Origin: Amyelois transitella
Taxonomy: Eukaryota; Arthropoda; Insecta; Lepidoptera; Pyralidae
Direction: 5' to 3'
Length of the DNA: 64,000 nucleotides
NCBI RefSeq assembly: GCF_032362555.1
Contig: NC_083535.1
Span: 7,130,001 to 7,194,000 of the forward strand
In this document: in pieces, positions 56,771 through 64,000 of the stretch
Numbering within the stretch: the first letter of the stretch is position 1
How the letters are laid out: each line of letters opens with the position of its first letter
Program-made: the position numbers and the translations under genes
The notes under the pieces: generated by a model
The model's database searches: none
What the model was told of the DNA's origin: nothing
The model's input: the letters and a program-made list of their open reading frames with translations, nothing else

Positions 56771-59700
56771 AACGTAGTGTCTTCATTCATCTTGTTACCA
56801 AATGAAAAAAAAAGCGTAGTAACAATCAAGATTTTGAACAGGATGGATAATTTCTTGCAGAGGACCTAATTTTTTTAAACCTGATCGGTCATCAGGAAAT
56901 GAAATGATATTTAAGATTCACATCTACCTACATTTATCTGTGTCATGTCGCAGCACTCGTAGCAAGCAGGTCGAGATTTTTTTCATTAATCGCCTTGATT
57001 GTCTGAGCTATAATATAATATAATATAAATATAGATATCATAGAAATCGTCTCAGTAACTACAGAAAAAGATATACCTTACTTTAGTTTTTTACTAAATT
57101 ACTAAATATAGGTACATATCTTTTAATAATCGTTCGTTTTAACGTTTTGAAATTTTAAGATATATTTTCTTAAGATAACCTTCTTTCGGAACGGAAAGAT
57201 AATTTCGATTTTTTGAACTGAACCGAATATTTAGAACTGAAACCGCCCGTCCATACATACATACATATGGTCACGTCTATATCCCTTGCGGGGTAGACAG
57301 AGCCAACAGTCTTGAAAAGGCTAAATGGCCACGTTCAGCTATTTGGCTTAATGATAGAATTGAGATTTAAATAGTGACGGGTTGCTAACCAATCGCCTAA
57401 AAAAAGAATCTCAAGTTTGTAAGCCTATCCCTTAGTTCGAGTCCCAAACTTACTTCGAGGCTAACTCAATCTGTGTAATTTGTCCCGTATATATATATAT
57501 TTAGTCGTCTTGTACGACATCCATGGGAAAGAGATGGAGTGGCCCTATTCTTTTTGATATTGGTGCCGGGAACCACACGGCCTTCCATTTAAACAAAAAA
57601 TAATTTCGAACCCATTGCATGTCGCTAGTTAATATTTAATCATTGATATAAACTGAACGTAGGTATTATAATTTCAGGGAAAAATATACCACTGTAATTG
57701 TTTTGCATACTTTATTTCATAATTGTGTCAATTATCATGTATGTTTACTGGCTTAAACATTTAAACATAGTATTCTAAGCCGCGTAGATAAATATTATAA
57801 TACTGAATGTAAATTTAAATGTATTGATATGAATATCTTAGAAGTGAAAAAGTTCCATACGGGTAGGATCCTAATAATGTGTTGAATATTTTTGCAGTAC
57901 GAAATGGGATAGGTATGTAAATTGTATTAATATTTCTCGATAGGTAAATCAAACTTGCAGTGGAAAGCATATATACTTAGTCTTACGGGTGTTCTTCAAG
58001 TTTGACATTCACACAAAAATTTGACACAATGTGTTAATATAAAAAAAATATGATGTTTTACATACATGTATGTATTTGTTGATATTTTTATGTTGTTTAA
58101 CATACATGTATTTGTGGACATTTAAGCAGTACGCTTTTCTGATGCAGATTTAACAATATGTATAAATAAACCCACTCTATTTTAGCTGGTATCACACCAT
58201 TGAACATTTATATATGACAAAATATGAACTCTAATATTATGTGCATAAATATTATTTTTTTAACAAATTTTATATATATGTTTTAGTATTTTACATATAT
58301 TTCACTACATTTTATATCACTCATCATAACAATTTGTACCATACATATTCATTAGCATACATAACAATTAAATTACAAGACAGATTGATGAAAATGTGTG
58401 TAAGTTAGTGATAACACGATTGAAAAATGAAAATACGACTAAGCTAGAGAACTTCAAATCTTACAAATGGGAAAGCAGAACTTTGCCAATGTAATCCAAA
58501 TTATGTGAAACCAAAACTGATGGTAAATAGTGAATGGGTTAAAAAAAAGTGGCTGTTGTTATTTGACGATTTCATTAAATTAAACATAAATAAAATCATA
58601 CCTCTTTCCTGGAAGAGTAGGCATAGACTACATAATTCCACTTGTCACGATATCTGCATACTTCATTAAATTAACAAAAATACTTAGATCAATACACTGG
58701 CAAAGTATACTTTTTATTTTATTTTGAAACGTTTGTATGTAAACGATGGAGATAGCTGCTAACAAAGTTTGTAAACAATTTAGAACGTGGTGAAATAATC
58801 TAGTAGGAAAGTATGTTTCTTATATACTAATTACTGTTTAACATTTGTATAACAATAATCTGACAAAGTGTATTACGTTAATGACGATTAAGACAACATT
58901 AAGAATATAAAATTATAGACAACAAATTTGTAATAAAATTAATTTTGATACTTAAATACCTAGAAACTACAATTTATAATGTCATAAATAGATAATTCTA
59001 AAAATTAAGTAAGTTAAACTGTACTTGTATAAAAAGGTCAAAATGTTACTTTTACCACATCAAATAAATCATATCAAAAAGCCTATGCATGCAAATTGCG
59101 ACTTGAATGTATCTACCGCGTGGTAGTAATTTCATTTTGTGGAGCGTCTACTCCTAGGGCCTAATGCTAGCGGACCTATTGAAGCGCTGATGTCAAAAGG
59201 ATTACAATAGGTACCGATTATTGTGTCGAAACCAACAAATCAGGCCACCGACTGTGGCTTAGATCAATCTACCAATACAAATATTATAAATGCAAGTGCA
59301 CATTACAAAAATATATATCTCTATATTAGTTATTTAGCATACTAACGTGAATATTTTATCGAAATGTCTACGTCAGCATAACAATCCATAAACTATGAAA
59401 CTTCTAACGTGGTGCTCACTATTACAAATGTTAGGTACTTAAATTGACATCGTTATGGAAAGCATGCAGGAATTAAAATATGTTTAAGCCAGAGTTAGTT
59501 AGAGGAAGTGCGAGTCTGTGGAAGCAATATCATATTGAGAAGTCATTAATTAATCTAGTGAGTACAAAATACTTAGCTTCGGAACCTAGATTGTTCAAAG
59601 GAATCATTAGAATTCGTTACAATACCCAATTTGAACCATTCAATTTTAAAAAGTCGTAAAGTCGAGATATTTAGCCTAAAAATCGAACTACAAGTTTTTT

Positions 59701-60360
59701 AATGGATACATTCCAAAAGAACATGCCGCCTTTAATTTTCTAAGGAAAACATCATAAGATTGTTTGTAATTGTAGGAAGGTATACACTGATAGTATTTTA
59801 CTACATCATAAAAGGTTAAAAACTATCCTGGTTTATTATAACCTTTAACTATAGTACATATACACACATTAATTAGATGTTAACTATTTACCAAGGGTTT
59901 CTTTATCGTCCATTTTACAAGCATAGAACATACGTAAGTACTTCCCTGTTTCTAAATTTTACGAATCACGATTCTAGTTCACGAATAGCTACAGCTATTT
60001 GCTGTTTGATAACAGTACAAAAATACACCTTTTCGTTGAGAGGTTGCGCTCATAAGATTTTAGTAAACCATGGAAGCATTTGTAAATGCAATTATTTATT
60101 TGTTTTGTCATTTTCCTATAGAAATTTTACAAAAGATTTCTATATTTTTCACATTGACGTTTTATTGATTAGCTACTTACTTACGACTGTCTGTGTTCAG
60201 AACGTTGTGTCTCGCTTTCATTTGCAAAATAATCATTTGATTTCTATGAATTTTTTCTATGAAAGAGAGATAACATAATGACATCGTAATTTTAATCCAT
60301 ATATTTTGCGAGATTTTATGGAAATCCAGTGTTTCACTTACAAATGTTTTCATTACAGGC
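56771..60360. other. Intergenic, SLC5 start to Hyperkinetic end
   Basis: AT-rich DNA that should include the Hyperkinetic 3' UTR (both genes run on the minus strand). It contains a composite SINE at 57250-57585 and a TACATACATGTAT-type repeat pair near 58060-58110. No gene is supported. Confidence 0.55.
57250..57585 (-). repeat. SINE-like family A, full length with internal insert
   Basis: Reversed copy with tail CATACATACATACATATGG, all central blocks and the head GGTGCCGGGAACCACACGG. Between CTATCCCTTAG and TCGTCTTGTACGACATCC about 65 bases are inserted, containing GTTCGAGTCCC (B-box like) and CCCGTATATATATATAT. Confidence 0.85.
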
Positions 60361-63300
60361 TTAAATGTCTGCTGGAGACGACAGATCTAGTCGGGATCTG
60401 CGACGGTCGCGGGAGGCGGAGAGTTGTCCTGAAGACGACCTTTGTAAAGAAGCGGACCGCGGGCGAGCCGTGTCGGTCTTGGATTTCTTCACCTTGCTGC
60501 CCCCGCTGGCTGGCTGCTTGCCTTTCAGTGAGGACACTGACACTACTATATCCGTCGATACCCCATCTTGTTCTAAAAATTATGATCTGTCAGTATTTTT
60601 AAAACTTTTGCAATAACATTGCCATTTTTCTGTAAATAACACAGTTAGGAGAAAAAATAAACTTGAGAAGATGAAGATTTCGCTGAGCTTAGATATCTCA
60701 ATAATACACTTTATGGATCGTTAAAAGTTAAGTCATAACCACGGCCAATGAAACGCGATAGAAACGTCGACAATTAATGGTACATGTACATTAAAACCTG
60801 TGTTATTTAGAGTATATGAACGCATATTATTAGTAATTTTACTATTATTAGATTTACCTGTTCGCTTTATAACCTCGCCGGCATTGTTTAAGAAATATTT
60901 AGGTTTATTATCCTTTGGTGATTCCTAAAAAAAGGACAATATCATTATACTACCAACACTAATTGATCGACATACATTACTTATTTCATGTTAAGTAATC
61001 TTTTTAATGATATAAGCAATACCACGAATGAAAATATACATACTAAATACACTGACTGGCCCTCATAATGGCCCGCCAATCTTCAAAAAAAAAATTATTA
61101 TACTCCATTTGTCTAGGTAATTAAATAAAAGTAAACAATTTTGAAATGTCTTATAAATTATCAAATTATACATTTCTCAAATAAAGTATGATTATTGCAA
61201 AAGTAATTTTATGCGTCTGTTATTTAATTTTCTTTTTTTTTCTCACGGCTTTAAATTATTAAAGCCATGTCCATGCCTTTAAATGTATTTTTCTACAAAA
61301 ACAGGTGTATCATGATGGTTTACTTTTATTTATGTGCCTATAGAATAGGGCTATACGCACTTTGATTTTTTATTCAACATAGTATAGCGTGCAACATAAA
61401 ACTAGGTGATTTCCATACGTACTGCCGACACCTTTGATTTACTAGATTTGGAAGCAGAGTCAGTGCTTCCCCGCCACCACGGTCACTGAATCTCACAGAA
61501 GGCCCGCCCGGACTCTTTCCCGGGGGTAGCAGACTCGCCCTCCACAGCGTTGTCACCCTCGGGCTTCGGTGACCCAGTTCCTGATGTGGTGGCACCGCTG
61601 AAATGCCAAATTGTTCAAATAAATATTCCTATTAAAATTATAAATAATTTGTAAGGATACACTTTGCAGTATTAGGTAAAGTTTAGACATTCGAATAACA
61701 TATGTATTTAAACAGTTAGCTTTTGAGGCGGGCGAAGTAACGGACAACAGCAGATATAAAAAGAAATAAACCTTTGTAGACTTTTCTTGTGTTTATTTTT
61801 ATTTATTTTAATTTACATTTTCAATGTTTTCAGTAAATTTTACATTTTTGTATTGAAATAAAAATAGGTCAGATTCTAAAGTATTTTAGTTCATGTAGGT
61901 GTCACTTTTACAGTCTCATATCAACTTATATGTCCACCGTGTATTATTAAGTATGGCATAGGGTGCAACTGGGAACGCGCCAGGTTTAGAGAGAGTGTAT
62001 TATTTTTATAAATATAGTATGTAATTGATTAGCTAATAAGAAACTTACGTCATGTCCACTCGAACAGTATTATTATTCTGTTGGTTGCGCATTGCCAGCG
62101 TGGAGACCATGGGAGGCCGCTGTGGTTTATTGGACAATAGCCTCTCAATCTCCACCATCACCGACGGCGTCAACTGCGGCACAATCTGAAAAGAGATGGT
62201 AAATTTTCTTTGAAAATTATACTTAAATTATGCTTAAAAATTCAGTGCATAAAATCTTAGTTAATATTATATAGTAGACGACTGTTAGTAATTATATAAT
62301 AGTTATATAATTACTAACAGTCGTCTACTGTAACTTTATTTTAATCTATTTAAATACTACGTGGTTTGTGCTCGGGTTCCTTTCTCAGAATGGTAGGCAA
62401 AAAGACTTCCAAATGACACGATCCCGGCATACTTCTTTTGCATCATCACCATATCAATTTATTAAATCAATTCAATAATCAATTTATTCATTTTAGCTCG
62501 TCGGCTAAGGGGAACTCTTGACCATACCAGAAGCTAATTAAAATTTTAGTTTAATACCTGTAAAGCATGAATATTCTCTTTGAACTGTTCTACGCTTGTT
62601 GCCCCCAACAATAAGCAATTAACTGACTCATTCTTCAAACACCAAGCAACTGCCAATTGGCTCATGGAGCAATCTGGAATTTAAACCATAAATTTTTGAA
62701 CATAATATTTATATTTCGACTAAAATACGTGCAAAAATATTAAGGTCTTTATAGATAATGTAATTTTTTTCCATAATTGTAATAATGTTCGTACCCCACT
62801 ATATATTATCCGTAATTGAATGACGCAATTACTTAGATAAAAGTTTTTGGCGTAATCAACATTTAATTTACCTTTTTAAAAGTGTATGCGATTCCGCTAT
62901 TCGGCTATTAAAATACTTGCATTGCTTCAAACCGGAACTTAAAAGAACTAAATAATGACATAGTAAGAGGACTACATAACGCACTGAGAGAATTGGCGAG
63001 GTTGGACAAGTCGCGGAGTTTGTCGCCGTAAGTCCTTGGCTCTTCCCCAGTCAGTTGCTCCTTGCTGCCGGAGCTCCGCATCTAGGTACATAAAAAATAT
63101 AGTAAAGGCAATGAATTTTTGTAACAGAAATACTTATAAAAAAACGCAATTATTAAGCTATAAACTAGTGAAATGTAAAATAAAATTTCTTACCTTGTCC
63201 TACATATTATTACCATGAAGCAACGCCATGAAAAAAGCATGAGCACTGTATATTTTATTTGCCAGTAAAGTACGGTACAAACGAATCCTACGGTTTTCAC

Positions 63301-64000
63301 TGAAGAATAAGGTCACTTCATCTTTTCCTGTAGATGTCTTAGGAAAGGATAGGATCTGGGTACTTAAGTAGTGAATCAAATATTTCCAGAGTTTCTGGCA
63401 GGAAGGTGACCGTGAAATAGTCGCGAATATTTTTTTTACATTGGAAGTATCACTTACATGTTATTTTATATTATGACTACAGACTATATGATTGTTTCCA
63501 AGGTTTGGTACCAAGGCAAACGGATTCGAGAACGCAATGTGATGAGTGAGAAAGGGAGCTCGAAAATAAACAATTTGAACCCAGGAAGAGAATGAAAATA
63601 AAGCCGGCGTTGTAAAAAAAAATAGTGAAAAGTTAAATAAACAAAAGAAGTGAAAACATGATAAAGGTGATAAAGAGTCAAAGTTTACTTCAGGCACAGC
63701 GAGATCTTCTTCGCACCAACTGAAAGTACTATATTTTCTATTGAAGCGCGATTTGGCAAAGAGACCAGTGATCTCCTCGCGGCCGAGGCCTTTGCCCGTT
63801 GTAATAGCAGACCAGACCATCATTCCTGGTAAACAATTAATACCTATAAAAGTGTTACATAAATGGTTACTTAACTACATTGCTCAATAATAAGTTTAAG
63901 ACTTACCAACGCCAATTTTGTGATATAGCTCAGGCATGTACAACTCTGGTTTTTCACGACAGAACATGTGATATTCTGTTTGTTCCATTATGGGTGTGAT
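60361..64000 (-). CDS. Hk: Hyperkinetic, Kv channel beta subunit (C-terminal part)
   Basis: Partial; the N-terminal half lies beyond the right edge. Exons join in phase: 64000-63907, 63825-63689, 63081-62985, 62673-62558, 62185-62049, 61597-61423, 60924-60858, 60572-60361. The first five encode the end of the aldo-keto-reductase-like Kv-beta core: [67 protein letters not shown], then [20 protein letters not shown]. These proteins bind the T1 domain of Shaker channels in the cytoplasm and alter gating with a bound NADPH. In exon 61597-61423 the frame meets TGA at 61485-61483, which ends a 37-codon tail ([15 protein letters not shown]... CEIQ). Beyond it the frame stays open for 112 codons to TAA at 60363-60361. 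The donor of exon 63081-62985 was set at A/GTGCGT because it gives an alignment without gap. Confidence 0.88.
61483..61485 (-). other. Hk: In-frame TGA followed by C in Hyperkinetic
   Basis: Context on the minus strand is GAGATTCAG-TGA-CCGTGG. Either this is the normal stop of a short form, or it is bypassed (readthrough, editing) to make the long C-terminus. The downstream frame is Ser/Lys-rich and basic. Confidence 0.75.
62273..62329. repeat. Intronic hairpin, 27-bp perfect arms
   Basis: AGTAGACGACTGTTAGTAAT with TATATAA, a three-base loop TAG, then the exact reverse complement. It lies in the Hyperkinetic intron between exons 62673-62558 and 62185-62049. Confidence 0.92.

Follow-up and report, generated by a model that had tools for sequence, protein, structure and literature searches.

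The closest described system is Hk of Drosophila, a conserved readthrough candidate identified by coding conservation past its stop (PMC13170385, citing Jungreis 2016). As far as the available portions of that source go, it is among six genes with predicted post-stop stem-loops, in all of which readthrough was predicted from conservation; the structures considered there span at least 35 nt, have a loop of 3-10 nt, tolerate bulges no larger than 2 nt and lie no farther than 60-80 nt from the stop. All six stem-loops raised readthrough over a stemless construct in S2 cells, that of Hk reaching 4-5 times the dfr288 level, and because each loop was set after the UAG of dfr together with bases +4 to +9 of that context, this fly assay speaks for the Hk stem-loop and not for the Hk stop (PMC13170385).

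In the accessible sections of PMC5100048, 61-76% of the fly and mosquito candidates end in TGA and 49-63% have a 3' C, 113 fly-mosquito pairs have orthologous stops, structures come and go while readthrough persists, and abundant readthrough was not seen in beetle and honeybee; where the second ORF contained an exon break or a predicted 3' splice site and the part preceding it lacked a coding score, the case was taken as splicing. Long fly extensions are often low-complexity and disordered (PMC4528330, partial text). A phrase search for Hk in the accessible main text of PMC5100048, PMC3840789, PMC8417969, PMC4999894 and PMC4528330 did not find it, the negative result for the ribosome-profiling and 2016 evolution papers counting against readthrough; PMC13170385 was the only source on Hk readthrough found in the literature, and none was found for lepidopteran Hk.

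The locus analysed here resembles Drosophila Hk in that the same Kv-beta gene has a stop followed by an open extension. Unlike the fly gene, for which a long stem-loop is predicted, it has no such structure after the stop, and its extension is cut by two introns; this comparison draws on the published description of fly Hk, whose stop may or may not be orthologous. With the UGA-C candidates of Jungreis 2016 it shares a TGA, a 3' C, a long multi-exon gene and a low-complexity extension; it differs in a second ORF that holds both a predicted 3' splice site and an exon break, which the criteria of that study would mark for scrutiny as alternative splicing (PMC5100048). We favour ribosomal readthrough of the TGA, a reading that we consider probable, if by no means secure, and it leads, instead of sharing an even call, because of the fly Hk precedent. 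The first-pass annotation had also proposed readthrough; as the best single reading it stands, through that precedent, the TGA-C context and a serine bias, while its phase argument proved weak and it overlooked an acceptor at 61441 that lies in phase beyond the TGA.

The Hk frame and its continuation past the TGA

Hk occupies the minus strand at one end of the window, by which we mean the whole 64,000-nt stretch of DNA that was analysed (Table 1); the remainder of its core lies directly upstream, beyond the window. The joined core exons matched the Pfam family Aldo_ket_red (PF00248; E 1.6e-40), as befits a Kv-beta protein, and rat Kv-beta2 (1exb) was their best PDB match (E 2.6e-96), the best 12 matches all being Kv-beta2. 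The Kv-beta2 alignment stops at NKPQ, so the whole Hk tail, including the 44 codons before the TGA, lies outside the solved core. One core exon, when started at 63843 on the minus strand, carries an INCLPG insert that Kv-beta2 lacks; starting it at 63825 instead, after an in-phase AG (TTTACCAG/GAATGATGG) 18 nt downstream, would drop INCLPG and restore the Kv-beta2 match.

Table 1. Coordinates of the Hk exons and neighbouring features in the window
Feature	Coordinates	Strand	Basis or remark
Hk core exon, in-window part	63907..64000	-	Translation, phase chaining, Kv-beta match
Hk core exon	63689..63843	-	Phase chaining, Kv-beta match; acceptor alternatively 63825
Hk core exon	62985..63081	-	Phase chaining
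Hk core exon	62558..62673	-	Phase chaining, Kv-beta match
E5, last Kv-beta core exon, up to VDMT, ends in phase 2	62049..62185	-	Phase, Kv-beta match
E6, tail exon with the TGA, 175 nt, donor GCA/GTACGT	61423..61597	-	Frame, phase, splice scores
TGA stop, next base C; candidate readthrough codon	61483..61485	-	Frame reading
Post-TGA stretch of E6, 20 open codons, 7 Ser by 6 codons	61423..61482	-	Translation, shuffle test
7-bp hairpin GGAAGCA/TGCTTCC, begins 13 nt past the TGA	61450..61470	-	Fold
Rival in-phase 3' splice site TCTAG/T, first exon base 61441, CTGAC 18 nt upstream	61441..61442	-	Splice score
Two AATAAA hexamers, possible short-transcript end	61374-61369, 61330-61325	-	9.8% of 200-nt windows hold two
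E7, candidate extension exon, 67 nt, strong splice sites	60858..60924	-	Phase, splice scores, codon usage p 0.02
Possible alternative end after E7, 16 residues then stop	60580..60629	-	Acceptor 60629 scores above that of E8
E8, last candidate extension exon, 212 nt, Ser/Arg/Lys-rich, ends TAA	60361..60572	-	Phase, composition

The coordinates and phases of the first-pass annotation were reproduced: the Kv-beta frame runs into a single TGA at 61485-61483, stays open for 20 codons and continues through E7 and E8 to the TAA, 112 codons in all. Its description of TGA followed by C as a leaky context likewise holds, the stop reading TGAC at 61485-61482, which is the commonest context among the fly and mosquito candidates in the accessible part of PMC5100048. 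The claim that chance retention of phase over these exons is unlikely was, in contrast, overstated. When two introns were allowed and no splice site had to score better than the weakest of those proposed, 112 codons or more were reached from 140 of 1838 random starts and, under the same rule, from 342 of 1500 starts having 20 open codons; these starts came from the rest of the window, with 58000-64000 excluded, and real exons of other genes may be among them. Raising the thresholds to 5 for donors and 3 for acceptors cuts the observed chain to 26 codons. The GC content of E6 and E8 is high (0.53-0.64), a range in which fewer stops occur, and E8 can be read without a stop in one other sense frame as well. 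E6 is also entirely open in a second frame (61374-61628, minus strand, 84 codons from stop to stop).

Other ways of joining the exons were also read. An out-of-frame reading of E6 hits a stop in E7, E5 joined straight to E7 is out of frame, and E5 joined to E8 gives another open frame; the only phase-0 donor upstream of the TGA lies at 61545 and scores -0.1. The 92-residue E7-E8 tail matched only itself in its own genome (2 places, one copy in the assembly). No relatives of the tail appeared in scans of viral contigs or of genome contigs, the latter having no insect relatives among them; Pfam gave only sub-threshold matches to it, and querying the PDB with the E6 tail together with the last core exon returned nothing useful. 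As for selenocysteine insertion at the UGA, no Rfam/SECIS match was obtained within 59500-62300 at E values up to 1.

Splice scores were calculated with approximate matrices, not trained on this DNA, and were read against the ranges of 8 core Hk donors (3.0-8.7) and 8 core acceptors (2.6-10.3), junctions that had been chosen with the same matrices. The E6 donor (4.3) falls inside the core range, which the E7 donor (8.8) slightly exceeds; of the acceptors, those of E6 and E7 (2.6 and 8.8) are inside their range, and that of E8 (0.7) is below it. The two E7 sites rank in the top 1.2% and 0.8% of sites in the window.

Possible coding signal and RNA structure beyond the stop

The 20 codons after the TGA include 7 serines written with 6 different codons, a bias that dinucleotide shuffling rarely reproduced (P 0.0002 in frame; P 0.001 for any residue and any frame), and E8 holds 17 serines in 69 residues (P 0.005 in frame; 0.02 for any residue or frame), the test having been picked after the sequence was seen. 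Upstream of the TGA, E6 displays no residue bias (P 0.35 and 0.58). As controls, 9041 overlapping 20-codon windows, stop-free and GC-matched, were taken from the same 64,000 nt: 58 had a residue that occurred 7 or more times through 5 or more codons, 172 had one that often irrespective of codons, and 61 had at least 7 serines. A codon-usage score derived from 8986 codons of 30 ORFs at the kinase locus gave p values of 0.02 and 0.51 for the parts of E6 before and after the TGA, of 0.02 for E7, 0.32 for E8 and 0.05 for E7 and E8 together, with 0.12 for the core exon E5; the test is weak, since no more than 6 of the 9 core pieces come out above zero. The post-TGA serine bias suggests a protein-level signal and is more telling than codon usage. 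A GC-rich block that runs over the TGA to about 61451 also counts for readthrough; against it counts that RAFCEIQ and PWWRG, which flank the TGA, are unlike the remaining tail and without serine bias.

The 60 nt after the stop fold into only a 21-nt hairpin with 7 bp and a 12-nt hairpin, short of the stem-loop definition given above (Kansara 2026), and 80-nt folds add no stem that reaches it. The 7-bp hairpin is no more than chance predicts, as 636 of 3000 shuffles contain one; fold z values in three post-stop pieces were -0.61, 0.03 and 0.52, and the ordinariness of the hairpin (z 0.03) counts against readthrough. The motif CAGCAGCA, enriched near readthrough stops, is absent here and also counts against it. 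The 740-nt stretch from E6 to E7 folds better than 20 shuffles (z -3.37), a result not taken as readthrough evidence because the stretch is mostly intron. Within that intron, positions 61085-61369 form a long imperfect inverted repeat with 60-nt arms at 70%.

Proposed readthrough and its alternatives

According to the reading that we favour, the ordinary short Hk (ending GRAFCEIQ) would terminate at the TGA, and a fraction of ribosomes would pass it and add a 112-residue tail, rich in Ser, Lys and Arg, from the rest of E6, E7 and E8. The added tail is probably disordered and may change the interactions or placement of Hk; the model supposes that this species shares the readthrough predicted for the fly gene and that the translated mRNA carries the E6-E7 junction. 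A more elaborate version, which we hold to be quite unlikely, is that Hk readthrough is older than the split from flies and is gated by splicing: an unspliced E6 with poly(A) sites of its own would yield the short form only, an E6-E7-E8 mRNA with its leaky TGA would yield the form with a long, basic, phosphorylatable tail, and the dose of tail would be set by these two serial switches. The fresh part would be the occurrence outside flies together with an extension interrupted by two introns. If readthrough is correct, that of a neuronal potassium channel subunit, hitherto listed for flies, would be common to another insect order, the age and purpose of Hk readthrough would become testable, and Hk, which tunes sleep and channels of the Shaker type, would carry a regulated basic tail.

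Should the TGA be spliced around instead, the long form would be an ordinary isoform. E5 would then join, in phase, a 3' splice site that lies beyond the TGA within E6 (at 61441, with 61465 as the less likely option), giving a long form without the TGA, and the short form would end at the TGA, perhaps with intronic polyadenylation; we regard this, the main rival, as unlikely. Three AGs lie in E6 past the TGA, two of them in phase with E5, and 61441 (CTGACTCTGCTTCCAAATCTAG/T) scores 5.0 versus 2.6 for the E6 acceptor, at least as high as 2 of the 8 core acceptors; the resulting form reads VDMT-KSKVSA-ESPKDNK, with no TGA. At the thresholds used there are six stop-free in-phase exons that would fit between E5 and E7, the best two starting at 61441. 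Just 45 of the window's 3158 AGs combine such a score with a CTRAY motif; the motif itself tells little, because the other listed acceptors lack CTRAY except 60572. The locus resembles an alternative 3' splice site or composite terminal exon in its in-phase acceptor past the stop and in AATAAA in the next intron, where two such hexamers lie 109-158 nt beyond the TGA, and the exclusion test of Jungreis 2016 describes the same pattern (PMC5100048, accessible text). It departs from that arrangement in that the exon from 61441 would be only 19 nt long and would leave the Ser-rich STDSASKSS untranslated, and an in-phase AG of such a score arises by chance in 374 of 2897 GC-matched 60-nt windows (12.9%). 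The site at 61465 would keep the serine stretch but scores -3.4, under all 8 core acceptors. Restricted to the 41 nt before 61441, the serine bias is weaker (P 0.008 in frame, 0.26 for any residue or frame), so coding evidence cannot firmly part readthrough from splicing.

That the extension is untranslated, the protein ending in E6 and the open downstream exons being chance or untranslated sequence, is decidedly unlikely in our estimate. For it, a share of the starts in the chaining control do as well as the observed frame, codon usage cannot be told from base composition either past the TGA or in E8, and the acceptor at 60629, which outscores the weak one of E8, brings a stop 16 residues on. 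Against it speak the serine bias, which E8 and the post-TGA codons show in one and the same frame, the strong E7 splice sites and GC blocks that fit E6 and E8. Slightly less probable again is a tail of ordinary coding sequence whose TGA arose in this individual by recent nonsense mutation, belongs to a heterozygous allele or comes from faulty assembly, since TGA-C is what readthrough would lead one to expect and the fly ortholog is a readthrough candidate (PMC13170385, available portions). Such a lesion would nevertheless look just like this, with three exons open in frame but for one stop, and several sense codons are one change away from TGA.

Editing of insect channel transcripts is common, and A-to-I conversion of the TGA to TGG (Trp) had been offered as a second route to the long form; the case for it proved poor, and we consider it extremely improbable. 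The target A, with a 5' G and a 3' C, is in a disfavoured ADAR context, and its best duplex partner within -3000/+2000 nt was equalled or beaten by those of 28 of 60 shuffled targets. In a search of titles and abstracts, no paper tying Hk to ADAR or RNA editing was found. An inverted repeat about 790 nt upstream could in principle recruit ADAR. This repeat (62270-62332) lies in the intron before E5, with 30-bp arms that are 97% complementary around a 3-nt loop, and is possibly a small mobile element or a dsRNA former.
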